Notes under the pieces: generated by a model
Seen by the model: only the letters and a program-made list of their open reading frames with translations
The model's database searches: none
What the model was told of the DNA's origin: nothing
Shown: in pieces, positions 11,733 through 19,883 of the stretch
How the letters are laid out: the number at the start of each line of letters is the position of its first letter
Numbering within the stretch: the stretch's first letter is position 1
Source: an uncultured Gammaproteobacteria bacterium
Lineage (GTDB): Bacteria; Pseudomonadota; Gammaproteobacteria; JAADHQ01
NCBI GenBank assembly: GCA_947258655.1
Contig: CAMYJD010000010.1
Coordinates: 1 to 61,800, forward strand
Direction: 5' to 3'
Length of the DNA: 61,800 nucleotides
Made by a program: the position numbers and the translations under genes

Positions 11733-14700
11733 ATGAGTGCATTGCCAAAACTGGCTGATAAGAAATCGCTTAAGAACCTGGTGCCATTGAATGGCCTGTC
11801 GCCGACTCATTTCGAGGAATTGGCGAAGAAGGCTACTGTGCTTGAACTGAAGCCAGGCAAATACCTGTTCAAAAAGGGCGAGCGTGACAATTCCACGTGT
11901 TTTGTGCTCGAGGGTGAGATAGCCCTTGTGGATGGTAGCGATATTAAATTGACGATCGAGGGTGGTACGGCAGAGGCCAGGCATCCGATCGCAGCACAAC
12001 AGCCCAGACAGCTCGGAGCACGCGCCAAGACCCATTGTACGATAGTCAGTATTGATTCCGGCCTGCTCGACGTGATGCTGGCATGGGAGCAGTCTTCAGG
12101 TTATGAAGTGGATGAGTTCGAGTCCGACGATGAGGACTGGATGACGCGCATGATGCAGTCGGATTTGATGCAGAAGCTTCCTGCCAATAATCTGCAACAG
12201 TTGTTCATGCGCATGCAGGAGGTCGATGTCAAGGGTGGCGACGTCGTCGTCAATCAGGACGATGAGGGTGACTATTATTACATTATCAAGCAAGGCAAAT
12301 GTGTCGTCAGTCGCAAGCCCTCTGCCAATGCCAGGGAAGTGAAGCTTGCTGAACTGAAAGATGGCGACAGCTTCGGTGAAGAGTCATTATTGTCCGGTGC
12401 CAAGCGCAATGCCTCGGTGACCATGCTGACCAATGGCAAGTTAATGCGGTTATCGAAAAACGATTTTAATGAATTATTGAAAACACCATTATTGAGTCAG
12501 CTCGGTTATGGAGAAGCGAAGCAGATGGTCGAAGAGGGTGCTGTATTTCTGGATGTACGTTTGCCGGGTGAATACAATAATGCCCATCTGCAGGACAGTA
12601 TCAATATGCCATTGGCGGCGATACGTAGCGAAATAAGCTCAATTGATCGCGATAAGGATTATATCGTCTACTGTGATACGGGCAGGCGTAGTACCAGTGC
12701 CGTGTTTCTGTTGGGTCAGTTTGGTATCGATGCACATGTGCTCAAAGATGGTCTGAGCAATGTACCCCTGGAGGACTATAATCCGGTCGAAGGAAAAGGG
12801 GCGGAGAGCGCAGAAATAATCGACATCAACAGGGACAAGTCGGAAAGCAGCGCTCAGCAAGTAGATGCCGCGGAACTGCAGGCAATAGACGCAGAAAAGT
12901 CGCAACTGGAAAATAATGTAAAAAAACTCGTTGCAGAAGTGGCCAGCCTGAAAGAGCAGATTAGTGATGCGGAGCAGAAAATAGCGCAGCATGAGAGTGA
13001 GCTACAGGAAACGCAGGCTGCAGTGAAGCAAGAGCAGGCAAATGTCAGGAGCATGGAGGATGAACTGCAAGGTTTGCGTGATCTGGAGATAGAATCAGAC
13101 AAGCTCAAGGAGAAGCTGGAAAAAGCACAGGTTGCAGCCGATGAACAAGGCAAGCTACTGATAACTGCGCGGCAATCAGATGAAAGTGCACAGAAAAAGC
13201 TGTTGTCCCAACAGGCCGAAATGGAAAGGCTTGAGAAAGATCTGCGAGCAGCCGTGTCCAGAGCTGCAGAGGCGGAAGAGCTTCATGAAACCAATATCAG
13301 GGAGCTTGAGTCATTGCACGCCAAGATGGAAGTGTTGCAATCCGAAAAAGATGCTCTTGGTGAAAGACTGCTCAGTGTCGAACGGGAAAAGGATGCACTG
13401 GGTAAGGGTGTTGATGCCAGTGTGACAGCGCTGAACGAGGAAATTACGTCATTACGTGCGTCACTGGAGGAGATCCAGGCGAACAAGGCAGGCCTTGAGG
13501 AGGATCTGCAGCAAGGCCGTCAACAGCAGGAATCCCTGCAGCAACAATTACAGAATAAGAGCCTGGAGCAAGGGTCGCTCGAGCAAAAGATCGCTGAATT
13601 GAATCAGACGCTTGATGCAGAACGTAAACATGCGCAACAACTGCAATCAGAAAATGCCGAGCGGATTGAAGAGCTGCGAGGATTACAGGAAAAGCTGGAA
13701 CAACAGAATCAGTCGAGTGATCAGCAAAGTGCAAGCCTGCAACAACAGTTACAAGATAAAAGTGCCGAACAGCAGGTGCTCGAGAACAGGATTGCCGAAC
13801 TGAGCGCGGTGCTCGATGAAGAGCAGTCACGTGCCAGGCAGTTACAGTCCGATAATGCAGAGCGGCTACAAGAGCTGCAAGCGCTAGAGGGAAAACTGCA
13901 ACAACAGAACCAATCAAGTGATCAGCATAATGTAAAACTGCAGACACATATAGAGGAACTGGAACAGCACAAGACGAAACTGGAGCAGGATATGCAAGCT
14001 TCGCTTGCGCGCATTGATTCACTCGAGTCCGAGCTTCAGCAGCAGTCTACCGAAAAGCAGTCAATCCTCTCTGATAGTGAGCAGAATAATCAGCAACTGC
14101 AAGCGAAGTTGGAGGAGGCGCAACAACAGCGGCAGCAACAGGAATCCGAGATCGGTGAACTCAAGACCCGGCTGCAGGAGAGCGAGTCGAGTCTTGCCAG
14201 CCTCATGGAAGCGCGAAAACAGGAAAAAGGCGACGGTCTTGATAGAATAAAGACGTTGGAGTCAGGGCTGGAACAAGCCGCACGTGAACATGGTGAGCAA
14301 GTGTCGGCGATGCAGGCACAGTTGTCAGACTATGAGGAGCAACAGCGCCACCTGCAGGCCGAGATCCAGAAGCTGACGGAACAGTCGGCGCAGGAAACCT
14401 CCAGATATGAAAATGAAAAGGCTTCCTTTGAACAGCAGGTCAGCGCCGGTCAGGAAACAATCAAGGCATTGAAAGCCGAGTTGGAAACATCTGTTAATGA
14501 CAGTGAAGCACGTGAGTCGGAGCTGTTGGCGCAATTAGCCGAGTTCGGTGATAACCGTCGACAAATGGAAGCTGAATTAAAGTCTCTGCGGGACAGGTCG
14601 GCTGAAAATGAATCCATGTTTGCCAGTGAAAGGCAAATCCTCGAACAACAGAACCTGAGCAATCAGGAAGCCGTTAAAACCCTGAAGGCAGAACTGGAGG

Positions 14701-17315
14701 AATTATCGCGCCAGAAAAGTGAGCGTGAGTCCGAATTACAGCAAAGCCTGTCCACATCCGAAGTTGCACGGCAACAACTGACGAAGGAAATAGAAGAGCT
14801 TACAAGCAGAATAAATGAATCCGAGGCCAGCCTGACAAGCGCCAGGGAGGATGCAGAGCGACAAAATAACCTGAGCCAGGCCAGAATCAGTGCACTGGAG
14901 TCGGAGCTGGAGGGTGTAGGTAGCGAGACAGCAGCGCTGCTGCAAGCTCGGCAGGAGCTGCAAGAGTCTGCCGAGAAATATCAGCAGGAAATTGATCAGG
15001 GCAGGGAAGATAGGCAGCAACTGGAATCTCAGCTTGAGGCTCTAAATCGTGACCTGGAAGACCTGCGAACAGCGCAGAACGTATCCGAACAGGAACAGGA
15101 AAAACAGGTCATAGAATACCGGCAACAGCTGGAGCTGCAGAAAATAGAGAATGCTGCAGTTGACGAAAGATATCAACGGGCACAGAAACGCATCGATGAA
15201 TTGATTCAGGTCAATACGCAACTGGAATCGGGTGTGGGTGATGAAGCCTTGCATAATGAAATACAGGGTCTCAGAGGTACACTGGATGAGGCCGAGCAAA
15301 AGTTACAGGACAATGCGAGCCTGCTTGCACAGAAAACACATGAAAGCGATGAAATACGCAAGGAACTAGCGGCCTTGCGCGCGGTGTATGTGCAAAAGGA
15401 ATCCGAATTCACAGAGTTGCAGAATAAACTGGAGAGTGCGGCGCAGACGATTTCCGATTTTCATCAGCAGGATGATGATTCAAACAAGGGTAAGCAGGCG
15501 GCAGAAGAAGAGCTGAAGCTTGTGCGAGAAAGGTTTGAGCAGTCAGAAATCGAAAGCAAGGAAATCATTACAGGTCTGCAAAAAGAGCTGCAGGAGAAAG
15601 ACAGTCTGATCGATGAATATAACGATCAGGCGAGTCAGGCCAATGCATTGCGCACTGACGCCGAGTCTGCTTTCAAAGTCATGGAAGAGGAAGTTAATAC
15701 ACTACGCAATGAATCTGATCAATATCAGCAATCCCTGCACAATAGTCATGAACAATTGCAAGCGTTGCAGCAGGAGCTGGACAAGCTAAGAGAAGAGCAG
15801 AAGAACTGGCGTATTACCGAAGAGGATATGGTCAAGGCAAACGAGCTGGAGATGTCGCAAGCTCGAGTCAAGGAGCTGGAGGCCGAGTTGCAGCAGAGCA
15901 GTAAACATATCGATGCAGCCAGGGAAAAAATAGCGCAACTGGAAAACAGTGTGCAAAAGAATGACCGTTCGAAGCTGGAGCATGAGCTGCAAGGAAAAAT
16001 AGAACAATTGAAGCATGACATGGAAGGTCAACTGGAGCGATATAAATCCGACCTGGATGATGAATCGGGCAGGTTGAGGAAGGAAAACGACAAACTGCGT
16101 GACGAACTGCAGAATGCCTACAAGGAACAGGAAATCGCTATTCAGACGGGTCGTCCGGTTACCAAGGGTCAACAGCCGCAGCAGGTGGAAGAGGCGGGTA
16201 CTGCATCTGTTGTGGAAGACCATGCCGCCCTGTTCAATCTTCCTGATATTGACAAGAATCTTTTTAATACCAATACAGACAGGCCTGCATCAAAAAGTAA
16301 TACATTGATGATGGTTGTGCTGGTATTGCTATTTTCTTTGTTATCTGCGGGTGGTGTCTACTGGTATTTTGTTATGCATAAGGGTGCTCAGGCTACCTCT
16401 GCACCGTCGGCAAATACCACAGACAAAACTTCAGATGTGTTATCCGGAAAAGTATCGCAAACTCAAATTGCTGATGCGGGCACTATTCAGGCCAGCCCTG
16501 CGCGTGAAACCACGCCCCGGAAACCGGTAAAAGCAACGCCTAAGACGGTCAAGGCCAGTACGGCTATCAAGGGCCAGCTTAAACCTACTCGTGTATTCAG
16601 TGATTTTCTCGAGTCTGGAGGTAGTGGGCCAGTTATGGTCGGTGTGCCCGGAGGTATCTTCACAATGGGTAGCCCGGTCAATTCCACCTATTTTAACGAA
16701 AGGCCCCAACACAAGGTATCGATCAGGAAATTTACGATCTCTAAATACGAGGTCAGTTTTGACGACTATGATCGTTTCGCCGAAGATAGTGGTCGTCCGC
16801 GTCCTGCGGATAATGGCTGGGGTCGTGGCAAACGTCCTGTTATCAATGTTAGCTGGGAAGATGCCGTTGCCTATACCCAATGGCTGTCCAAGCAGACCGG
16901 GCATCAATACAGGTTGCCAAGTGAGGCCGAGTGGGAATATTCCGCGCGCGCGGGCAGCAAGGAAAAGTACTGGTGGGGTGCCCAGTACGAAAACAATCGT
17001 GCGAATTGCTTTAATTGCGGCAGTCGTTGGGATCGTGTCAGTTCTGCACCTGTTGGTAGTTTTTCACCGAGTTCCCTGGGGCTGCACGATATGTCCGGGA
17101 ATGTTATGGAATGGGTCTCGGATTGCTATCACCAGAATTATGATGGCGCGCCAATCGATGGCACGATCTGGTCACAGGGTGCCTGTAGCCAGCGGGTCGT
17201 CAGAGGCGGTTCTTTTCACAGTCCTGTCGAGGATATCAGGGTCAGCAAACGTAGTGCGTTTGATGCCGGCACTGCCGTAGACCAGATTGGTTTCCGTGTC
17301 GTGCGTGTGCGCTAA
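11733..17315 (+). CDS. Giant membrane-anchored protein: two cNMP-binding domains, rhodanese, long coiled coil, C-terminal FGE-like domain
   Basis: 1,860 residues. In order: a cyclic-nucleotide-binding-like beta-roll (about 20-115); a second, better conserved one (145-250) with the phosphate-cassette-like DGDSFGEESLLSGAKRNASV; a rhodanese domain (258-345) with the loop YCDTGRRS, catalytic Cys314 present; about 1,100 residues of Glu/Gln/Lys-rich coiled coil, including a 67-residue tandem repeat; one membrane helix (1525-1549); and a C-terminal formylglycine-generating-enzyme/SUMF1-like domain (about 1632-1860) with GGIFTMGSP, LPSEAEWEY and GNVMEWVSDC. The membrane helix should place the N-terminal parts in the cytoplasm and the FGE-like domain in the periplasm. 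The FGE domain lacks the paired cysteines expected after RGGS, so it is probably a binding or structural module. No close named homologue is recognised. The ATG at 11733 has only a weak ribosome site. Confidence 0.85.
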   Translation: MSALPKLADKKSLKNLVPLNGLSPTHFEELAKKATVLELKPGKYLFKKGERDNSTCFVLEGEIALVDGSDIKLTIEGGTAEARHPIAAQQPRQLGARAKTHCTIVSIDSGLLDVMLAWEQSSGYEVDEFESDDEDWMTRMMQSDLMQKLPANNLQQLFMRMQEVDVKGGDVVVNQDDEGDYYYIIKQGKCVVSRKPSANAREVKLAELKDGDSFGEESLLSGAKRNASVTMLTNGKLMRLSKNDFNELLKTPLLSQLGYGEAKQMVEEGAVFLDVRLPGEYNNAHLQDSINMPLAAIRSEISSIDRDKDYIVYCDTGRRSTSAVFLLGQFGIDAHVLKDGLSNVPLEDYNPVEGKGAESAEIIDINRDKSESSAQQVDAAELQAIDAEKSQLENNVKKLVAEVASLKEQISDAEQKIAQHESELQETQAAVKQEQANVRSMEDELQGLRDLEIESDKLKEKLEKAQVAADEQGKLLITARQSDESAQKKLLSQQAEMERLEKDLRAAVSRAAEAEELHETNIRELESLHAKMEVLQSEKDALGERLLSVEREKDALGKGVDASVTALNEEITSLRASLEEIQANKAGLEEDLQQGRQQQESLQQQLQNKSLEQGSLEQKIAELNQTLDAERKHAQQLQSENAERIEELRGLQEKLEQQNQSSDQQSASLQQQLQDKSAEQQVLENRIAELSAVLDEEQSRARQLQSDNAERLQELQALEGKLQQQNQSSDQHNVKLQTHIEELEQHKTKLEQDMQASLARIDSLESELQQQSTEKQSILSDSEQNNQQLQAKLEEAQQQRQQQESEIGELKTRLQESESSLASLMEARKQEKGDGLDRIKTLESGLEQAAREHGEQVSAMQAQLSDYEEQQRHLQAEIQKLTEQSAQETSRYENEKASFEQQVSAGQETIKALKAELETSVNDSEARESELLAQLAEFGDNRRQMEAELKSLRDRSAENESMFASERQILEQQNLSNQEAVKTLKAELEELSRQKSERESELQQSLSTSEVARQQLTKEIEELTSRINESEASLTSAREDAERQNNLSQARISALESELEGVGSETAALLQARQELQESAEKYQQEIDQGREDRQQLESQLEALNRDLEDLRTAQNVSEQEQEKQVIEYRQQLELQKIENAAVDERYQRAQKRIDELIQVNTQLESGVGDEALHNEIQGLRGTLDEAEQKLQDNASLLAQKTHESDEIRKELAALRAVYVQKESEFTELQNKLESAAQTISDFHQQDDDSNKGKQAAEEELKLVRERFEQSEIESKEIITGLQKELQEKDSLIDEYNDQASQANALRTDAESAFKVMEEEVNTLRNESDQYQQSLHNSHEQLQALQQELDKLREEQKNWRITEEDMVKANELEMSQARVKELEAELQQSSKHIDAAREKIAQLENSVQKNDRSKLEHELQGKIEQLKHDMEGQLERYKSDLDDESGRLRKENDKLRDELQNAYKEQEIAIQTGRPVTKGQQPQQVEEAGTASVVEDHAALFNLPDIDKNLFNTNTDRPASKSNTLMMVVLVLLFSLLSAGGVYWYFVMHKGAQATSAPSANTTDKTSDVLSGKVSQTQIADAGTIQASPARETTPRKPVKATPKTVKASTAIKGQLKPTRVFSDFLESGGSGPVMVGVPGGIFTMGSPVNSTYFNERPQHKVSIRKFTISKYEVSFDDYDRFAEDSGRPRPADNGWGRGKRPVINVSWEDAVAYTQWLSKQTGHQYRLPSEAEWEYSARAGSKEKYWWGAQYENNRANCFNCGSRWDRVSSAPVGSFSPSSLGLHDMSGNVMEWVSDCYHQNYDGAPIDGTIWSQGACSQRVVRGGSFHSPVEDIRVSKRSAFDAGTAVDQIGFRVVRVR
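13539..13940 (+). repeat. Tandem 201-base repeat (67 residues x 2) in the coiled-coil region
   Basis: Residues 603-669 and 670-736 of the giant protein align without gaps: QQQLQ(N/D)KS at each start, IAEL, QLQS(E/D)NAER and QQNQSSDQ at the same offsets. The DNA copies (13539-13739 and 13740-13940) have diverged but remain recognisable, showing that the rod grew by duplication. Confidence 0.85.
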
Positions 17316-17558: not shown

Positions 17559-18431
17559 ATGAGTAATATTCTTGCAGTCGGTATTGCAACTGTCGACATC
17601 ATCCACACGGTAGCGCATTATCCCGGCGCTGACGATGAAGTACGCGCACTAGCACAATCGGTGCAAAGGGGGGGTAATGCCAGTAACACACTGGTGTTAT
17701 TATCGGCAATGGGCCACCAGTGCAGTTGGGCCGGCGTGCTGGCCGATGATATGTACGCTACATATATACGTAGCGATTTGCTTAATAATGGTATCGGACT
17801 GGACAATGCTGTAGAACAGGCTAATTCAAAATCACCACTGTCCTGTATTACACTCAGTCAGGATTCGGGTACACGCTGTATTGTACATTACCGAGATCTG
17901 CGTGAATTCAGTTGCGCAGACTTTGATCATATTGATATTCATGCTTACGACTGGTTGCATTTTGAAGGGCGTAATGTCGAACAGAGTATACTTATGTTGC
18001 GACGAATACGTGAGTCACAGTACCAGCGCCCGGTTTCAATCGAAATCGAAAAGCCGCGGATGGATATAGAGCGACTGTTCGCTTTTGCAGATATACTGAT
18101 GTTCTCGAAAGTGTTTGCCCGCCATGCCGGCTTTAACAATCCATCTGCTTTTCTTCAGGATATGCACATAAAGCATCCGCATATTGTGCATTATTGCGCA
18201 TGGGGTGAGAGCGGTGCATATGCCATTGATCAACATGGCACAATATATCATGCAGCGGCGCTCGGGGGCATAGACGTGGTCGATACGGTTGGGGCAGGGG
18301 ATGTATTCAATGCAGCGCTCATAGACGCAGAAATCAACGGGCTGGATTTGCAGGAAGGTTTGCAACAGGCCTGCAAACTGGCAGGCAGAAAGTGCAGTCA
18401 ATATGGTTTCTCTGGCGTGGTTGGAGAGTAG
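17559..18431 (+). CDS. PfkB-family carbohydrate kinase (ketohexokinase-like)
   Basis: About 290 residues of the ribokinase/PfkB fold. N-terminal ILAVGIATVDIIH, the Gly-rich GGNASNTLVLLSAMG substrate segment and the C-terminal anion-hole/catalytic motif DTVGAGDVFNAAL are all present. The pattern is closest to ketohexokinase-like members that phosphorylate sugars at the expense of ATP; the actual sugar is unknown. An in-frame ATG at 17526 would add 11 residues; neither start has a strong ribosome site, and 17559 was chosen because it matches the usual family N-terminus. The stop lies two bases before the Rieske gene, so the pair is probably co-translated. Confidence 0.87.
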   Translation: MSNILAVGIATVDIIHTVAHYPGADDEVRALAQSVQRGGNASNTLVLLSAMGHQCSWAGVLADDMYATYIRSDLLNNGIGLDNAVEQANSKSPLSCITLSQDSGTRCIVHYRDLREFSCADFDHIDIHAYDWLHFEGRNVEQSILMLRRIRESQYQRPVSIEIEKPRMDIERLFAFADILMFSKVFARHAGFNNPSAFLQDMHIKHPHIVHYCAWGESGAYAIDQHGTIYHAAALGGIDVVDTVGAGDVFNAALIDAEINGLDLQEGLQQACKLAGRKCSQYGFSGVVGE

Positions 18432-18433
18432 AA

Positions 18434-18796
18434 ATGAAATCGGCAACGGTATTATTCAGTACTGATGAGATAATAGATCGCCAATGCAGGACGTTCAGGA
18501 TAGCTGATGGAGCATTTACACAGGAAATCTTCGTAGTATTCAAAGGCGATAAGTTTTATGTTTACCAAAACAGCTGTCCGCATACCGGCGCCCCATTGGA
18601 CTGGATGCCCGATCAATTCCTGAATCTCGATAAAACACATATCCAGTGTTCCACGCACCATGCCTTATTCAGGATCGAGGATGGCTTCTGTGTAGCAGGG
18701 CCATGCGCAGGCCAGTCATTGAAAAAGGTACCGGTCAGGGTGGAAGGAGAGCATGTAATTGCCGAAATTGAAGGGAATAGGAACTCATCGGCCTGA
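18434..18796 (+). CDS. Rieske [2Fe-2S] ferredoxin-like protein
   Basis: 120 residues with the two cluster-binding boxes CPHTGAPLD and CSTHHALF (C-x-H and C-x2-H), separated by about 25 residues and followed by the usual PCAGQSLKKVPVRV strand. It is a soluble single-domain Rieske protein, likely a small electron carrier. The ATG at 18434 is preceded by GGAGAG inside the end of the PfkB gene; a longer reading from 18392 overlaps that gene and adds nothing conserved. Its electron partners are not evident here. Confidence 0.92.
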   Translation: MKSATVLFSTDEIIDRQCRTFRIADGAFTQEIFVVFKGDKFYVYQNSCPHTGAPLDWMPDQFLNLDKTHIQCSTHHALFRIEDGFCVAGPCAGQSLKKVPVRVEGEHVIAEIEGNRNSSA

Positions 18797-19373: not shown

Positions 19374-19883
19374 TCAGGGGAACGCTGGTATGGTCGGGTC
19401 GACCTGTTCGTGATGCGCCTCCGGGTGATGACTTTTCACCATCTGGGTGATTGTTTCGATATCATCTTTGGGTACGTCGATCATCAGTAAAAATTCACCT
19501 TTTTCGATCGCATCTTCAAACGGCTTTACCCGGCTATTGATGACATCGCTGCCAATCATGCCCGAGGCCCATGCGCCGATAGCCGCGCCTGCGAGTGCAC
19601 AGGCCAGTATCAGGCCGCCGCCGCCAAGACCGATGGTCGGTAACAAGGTGGCAATGACGCCTGCAATGATGCCGGTGAAGCCTCCAATTAATAGTCCCTT
19701 TTCAAGACCATAGACGAGATCGCTTTTTTGCATGATGTCCGCTTCGGGCAGCCCGCTCATGGCCGTTCCGGATCGGGCCATGACATGGATATGACCGATA
19801 TCGATCCTTGCCAGTAATAATTCATTAACGATTTCGCGCGTGGTTTTGCTGTCGGGTAACAAAAAGTACAGTCTTCTTCTCAT
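19374..19883 (-). CDS. DUF1269-like membrane protein with glycine-rich core
   Basis: 169 residues. The N-terminus (RRLYFLLPDSKTTREIVNEL) and C-terminal strand (GEFLLMIDVPKDDIETITQMV) flank two Gly/Ala-rich hydrophobic helices (about 65-110) containing GGFTGIIAGVIATLLP and AGAAIGAWASGMIGS, the layout of DUF1269 / general-stress-17M-like proteins. The glycine-zipper helices suggest membrane association. Function is unknown; relatives are often stress-induced. A Shine-Dalgarno-like GGAGG lies just before the ATG. Confidence 0.75.
   Translation of the reverse strand: MRRRLYFLLPDSKTTREIVNELLLARIDIGHIHVMARSGTAMSGLPEADIMQKSDLVYGLEKGLLIGGFTGIIAGVIATLLPTIGLGGGGLILACALAGAAIGAWASGMIGSDVINSRVKPFEDAIEKGEFLLMIDVPKDDIETITQMVKSHHPEAHHEQVDPTIPAFP

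Follow-up and report, generated by a model that had tools for sequence, protein, structure and literature searches.

A membrane-anchored gammaproteobacterial coiled-coil protein with a cyclic-nucleotide-binding and rhodanese tip and a PvdO-like head

The locus described here raises the question whether cyclic-nucleotide-binding (CNB) domains, a rhodanese, a very long coiled coil and a head of FGE fold belong to one membrane protein, and what such a protein would do. A sequence-only reading of the window, the whole stretch of 61,800 nucleotides that was analysed, had placed them in a single polypeptide. The features of this polypeptide, which we call the rod protein, are as follows.

11733..17315, + strand: whole rod gene, 1,860 amino acids (P0001); single uninterrupted frame, N-terminus aligned with the orthologues L025-L027
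11775..12092, + strand: CNB1, residues about 15-120, degenerate, with a QPR motif in place of the phosphate-binding cassette (comparison of fused proteins)
12165..12488, + strand: CNB2, residues about 145-252, with the intact cassette FGE(214-216)...R225-N-A227 (Pfam, profile comparison, 24 fused proteins)
12504..12767, + strand: rhodanese domain, loop CDTGRRS, catalytic Cys314 (Pfam; Cys in 23 of 24 fused proteins)
12813..16154, + strand: heptad coiled coil, residues about 361-1474, free of Pro and Cys, with about 20 changes of register, most of them stutters (periodicity, 7-state model)
13536..13937, + strand: tandem duplication of 67 residues within the coil (60 residues aligned at 63% identity, at most 32% in shuffles)
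16302..16358, + strand: single membrane helix, residues 1524-1542
16584..17306, + strand: head of FGE/PvdO fold, residues about 1618-1858, lacking the catalytic Cys pair of FGE (Pfam, structure model, fold search)
17007..17018, + strand: CxxC of the head, Cys1759 and Cys1762 (invariant in 24 of 24, likewise Cys1798 and Cys1818)

Pfam assigned cNMP_binding, Rhodanese and FGE-sulfatase to the protein, all above the curated cut-offs, and the order CNB1, CNB2, rhodanese, coil, one membrane helix and FGE-fold head lies within one frame of 1,860 codons, in agreement with the earlier reading. Relatives were collected from 274 sampled genomes of the class Gammaproteobacteria, in which the tip (CNB1-CNB2-rhodanese) and the outer head were searched apart with thresholds of E up to 1e-35 and E up to 1e-45, respectively, and fusions were called by pairing tip and head matches by hand on contig, strand and frame length. 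The tip was found in 127 of the 274 genomes and the head in 83, and both ends occupy one open frame, of 1,260-2,033 codons, in 23 genomes that represent 17 family-level groups. Six complete relatives from other genomes gave the same domain scan result, and L025 matches both rod ends by BLAST. Because 23 further fused proteins have this order, the architecture is neither a chance joining nor a mis-assembly. Both ends do exist as separate genes in other genomes, but the fused frame is also present in single-contig genomes, often with the same gene neighbourhood, and the chance that separate genes were wrongly joined here is practically negligible. An assembly error was looked for and not found, and the claim of a single polypeptide holds.

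In the tip, the cNMP_binding match covers two stretches (E 4.6e-25, best at residues 165-250), followed by Rhodanese at residues 261-342 (E 5.2e-14). Both CNB-like domains that had been read from the sequence are there, although only one is intact: the CNB2 cassette residues F214, G215, E216, R225 and A227 are kept in all 24 fused proteins, whereas CNB1 lacks the cyclic-nucleotide cassette and carries a conserved QPR-type motif instead. The tandem is closest to PKA and PKG by profile comparison, and the fold search concurs. It shares with the regulatory subunits of these kinases the paired CNB domains and the FGE...R cassette in the second of them, but differs in the loss of the first cassette and in its output, which is a rhodanese and a coil and no kinase. 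The rhodanese loop is of the CxxGxRS type, and domain and Cys together place it among the single-domain sulfurtransferases; the catalytic Cys had been predicted correctly, and a single fused protein (1/24) has Ser in its place. The structure model of the tip reached a pTM of 0.56 with uncertain relative domain placement, and therefore only the individual domain folds were used.

Pro is absent from residues 352 to 1474, and the coiled-coil analysis gives a Pro-free heptad stretch of about 1,115 residues, matching the coil of roughly 1,100 residues proposed earlier. At a period of 3.5 residues the hydrophobic power is 5.75, compared with 1.02 +/- 0.20 in the shuffled coil. An unsupervised cyclic 7-state model recovers the a/d heptad (two phases three apart are 65% hydrophobic, the others 11-22%) with a likelihood gain of 217 log units, compared with 69-85 for shuffles fitted identically. 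On five orthologues outside its training set the model clearly outscores shuffles, and it is negative on both end domains of the rod protein. Models of SMC proteins matched the coil only, with 81.5 and 74.6 bits against cut-offs of 729 and 567, and do not support an SMC/MukB-type ATPase. Matches to SMC and Rad50, like weak matches to defence-system models that again lay in the coil only, were treated as coiled-coil background. A T9SS PorK/GldK identity was likewise not supported, at 91.5 bits against an equivalog cut-off of 350.

Between tip and helix the fused proteins have about 365-1,290 residues, a range of about 3.5-fold, and a ruler of fixed length is rejected on these lengths. Coil identity with relatives is 26-50%, compared with 44-86% for the tip and 52-76% for the head, and the 67-residue duplication illustrates one route of coil growth. 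Since the coil is both divergent and variable in length, a tether is favoured over a ruler or precise spacer. A review describes spacer coils as divergent in sequence yet conserved in length, and golgins as parallel dimers of 50-600 nm (PMC5082667). Eukaryotic golgins such as giantin share with the rod protein the long divergent coil, the C-terminal membrane anchor and a binding tip far from the membrane, but they have other end domains, and the rod protein is bacterial and not conserved in length; the likeness is one of working mode, not of homology.

One membrane helix was found, as the sequence-only reading had it, and the head can be placed outside on two grounds. In 19 of the 24 fused proteins K and R are commoner before the helix, towards the coil, than after it, and in one they are rarer there, which supports a tip inside and a head outside. 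Independent support for this topology comes from the four invariant Cys of the head together with the Cys-free coil of the window protein. A paralogous head in another genome (G017, L062) starts with a signal-peptide-like segment.

The head carries FGE-sulfatase at residues 1633-1858 (E 2.2e-59), and its structure model has a mean pLDDT of 91.9 and a pTM of 0.90. By fold this model is best matched by PvdO (PDB 5hha; Z 34.8; 238 residues at an rmsd of 1.7), a protein of pyoverdine maturation that is also the nearest sequence match and has Cys aligned with Cys1798 and Cys1818; FGE structures such as SUMF1 are matched with Z about 29. What had been called a SUMF1-like domain is thus right as to fold and Pfam domain, but the FGE catalytic Cys pair is absent. 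This copper-binding pair, Cys336/Cys341 in SUMF1, follows a GGS motif, and no Cys is found in the 16-residue stretch after GGS in any of the 24 fused proteins. Because both catalytic Cys are missing throughout, the head is not a formylglycine-generating enzyme, despite its FGE fold. It also falls far short of the PvdO equivalog (NF051459), with 158 bits against a cut-off of 500, although the fold agrees. Furthermore, the head sits on a membrane-anchored rod and has an extra CxxC, which is missing from PvdO in the sequence alignment and present in the PP2C-linked heads described below. The outer head looks non-enzymatic and sensor-like.

Two genes lie downstream of the rod gene.

17559..18431, + strand: pfkB-family kinase gene (Pfam; locus comparison)
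18434..18796, + strand: Rieske [2Fe-2S] protein gene, 2 bases past the pfkB stop (Pfam; locus comparison)

Of 23 fused loci, 17 have a pfkB and/or Rieske gene downstream in the same orientation, in several of them as little as 2-50 bases away (L087 has a weak pfkB match, at 31%), and these recurrent neighbours mark the rod locus as a conserved cluster. A Rieske gene also stands downstream of a headless gene, L032:8001-11714 (+), a positional relative adjoining Rieske and radC that encodes tip and coil without membrane helix or head. The window has radC upstream of the rod gene, and also rpmB and rpmG, both identified from sequence reading; a sigma-70 promoter scan upstream of the rod gene found nothing. 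On the minus strand, positions 19374-19883 of the window encode a glycine-rich protein of 169 amino acids with a weak DUF1269 match, whose relatives lie close to the rod gene in several lineages.

In the tip tree one starred set (95%) holds 18 fused rows and two incomplete genes, and the other six fused rows are placed outside it; the fusion may have a single origin, and losses or later fusions are possible. The two ends co-occur in genomes without the fusion too (48/60 vs 56/191; odds ratio 9.6, kinship ignored). Many relatives have a stand-alone tip protein of about 355 amino acids, and the tip is also carried on shorter, headless coils. In the window's own genome a SulP permease-STAS protein (G000:C18, locus L042:1628-4471, +) ends in a CNB-CNB-rhodanese module with 37% identity to the rod tip, here C-terminal on a transporter and without rod or outer head; this permease looks as if cyclic nucleotide and sulfur state gate it. 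The outer head, in turn, is found in other genomes on PP2C phosphatases, with a membrane segment between the two, in L053:2856-4832 (-), L054:6156-8030 (+), L055:292-2193 (+) and L056:1589-3601 (-). These heads have the CxxC and 47-48% identity to the rod head, but their cytoplasmic part is the phosphatase and there is no long coil.

Several further variants were seen. PP2C-head proteins are widespread among genomes with the short tip protein. In L049:8667-12188 (+) tip, coil and membrane helix are followed by a short acidic, Pro/Ala-rich C-terminus that replaces the FGE-like head. Tip-bearing frames of 1,573-1,724 codons with no head match listed at the threshold occur in G066:C92, G149:C90 and G198:C69, and are possibly further rods that are headless or have a divergent head. 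In G031, two Hsp70-like genes, one with DUF3731, lie directly upstream of the tip-coil gene L050:3297-7957 (+).

The distribution of the fused form was compared with that of dsrA, which is present in 18 of 23 fused genomes and 74 of 251 others (odds ratio 8.6, kinship and genome size ignored), in 18/23 fused versus 49/104 unfused tip-bearing genomes (kinship ignored), and in 14/17 versus 45/151 with one vote per family (family totals counted by hand, deep phylogeny ignored). For Allochromatium vinosum, a sulfurtransferase of unknown identity upstream of DsrEFH was proposed in 2012 (PMC3397948). The window's own genome has dsrA, which was not detected in 5 of the 23 fused genomes. Other rhodanese and TusA proteins were named in later work for the sulfur step upstream of DsrEFH. 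The cyclase search covered class III, which was found in 115 of 127 tip genomes and 62 of 147 tip-less ones (kinship ignored), and the window's genome has six class III domains. The fused form alone shows no excess (17/23 vs 160/251), the class III search finding none in 6 of 23 fused genomes. Both links are associations to which genome size and phylogeny may contribute; as an association, the rod family is commonest in reverse-Dsr sulfur oxidisers.

The anatomy of the rod protein is well supported, and from it we infer a function. We tentatively propose, with a probability of about 0.35, that it is an inner-membrane tether, with a rhodanese tip under cyclic-nucleotide control on the cytoplasmic side and, on the periplasmic side, a PvdO-like head that bears Cys and serves as sensor or anchor. 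The C-terminal helix would fix the protein in the inner membrane with the head in the periplasm, and a dimeric coil would project into the cytoplasm with CNB1-CNB2-rhodanese at its tip; at full extension (1,115 residues x 0.1485 nm) this coil would reach about 165 nm. CNB2 would bind cAMP or cGMP and thereby switch the adjoining rhodanese or the partner binding of the tip, with CNB1 as a partner in structure or dimerisation. The rhodanese would handle or sense cytoplasmic persulfide sulfur, and the head may use its Cys to report a ligand or a thiol state, or may anchor the rod at a site.

This tether is supported by the residues kept at the ends (CNB2 24/24, rhodanese Cys 23/24, head Cys 24/24) beside a diverging stalk, by the 19-to-1 positive-inside bias and by the co-occurrence of the two ends without fusion. 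The pairings of tip with class III cyclase and of fusion with dsrA, the tip module on a SulP sulfate permease in the same genome, and the resemblance to golgins in long divergent coil and C-terminal anchor (PMC5082667) point the same way. Against it stand the fused genomes without detected dsrA (5/23) or class III cyclase (6/23) and the one protein with Ser for the rhodanese Cys; a rhodanese up to 165 nm off the membrane would also be an odd route for sulfur crossing it.

The same parts can be arranged differently. Chemoreceptors and other coiled-coil receptors transmit changes of register or rotation, and the head might bind a periplasmic ligand and pass such a change along the coil to the tip, to be integrated there with cyclic nucleotide. 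The invariant head Cys and the PP2C fusions, a typical receptor architecture, fit this, but a register signal carried so far across about 20 stutters would be unusual, and a stalk of 26-50% identity and 3.5-fold length range fits poorly; we regard such an outside-in receptor as rather unlikely. If the rod instead marked or filled a region of the cell (pole, septum or storage inclusion), its end domains only recruiting partners, the very long heptad coil, its variable length and its internal duplication would be accounted for. It is the ends, however, that are best conserved and keep their active-site residues, and no polar or cytoskeletal family matched the protein, which leaves a purely spatial role unlikely.

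Control might also run outwards, the tip setting the activity of a head that is a PvdO-like periplasmic oxidoreductase. The closeness of PvdO in fold and sequence is what suggests this, but the missed equivalog cut-off, the lost FGE Cys pair and the lack of any substrate pathway nearby make it quite improbable. We hold a more specific form of the tether to be just as doubtful, namely a two-sided sulfur and redox monitor in which the head CxxC would sense thiol or sulfane-sulfur state and, tethered to a cyclic-nucleotide-gated cytoplasmic rhodanese, would aid the mobilisation of stored periplasmic sulfur into the reverse-Dsr pathway.

No named family with the domain order of the rod protein was found in Pfam or NCBIfam, in line with the sequence-only reading, and open PMC papers, the scope of the literature search, held nothing relevant on the CNB-rhodanese-FGE-head order, the PP2C-head fusion or a link of sulfur globules or Dsr to CNB domains. 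Each domain is already known; as far as we found, their order in one membrane-anchored coiled-coil signalling or tethering protein is undescribed. The rod family, likewise undescribed as far as we found, is gammaproteobacterial, probably old and not peculiar to one genome. If its anatomy translates into function, Gammaproteobacteria would possess unnamed golgin-like rods uniting second-messenger and sulfur chemistry in one polypeptide, and the rod protein would be a candidate for passing stored periplasmic sulfur, or signalling its presence, to cytoplasmic sulfurtransferases.
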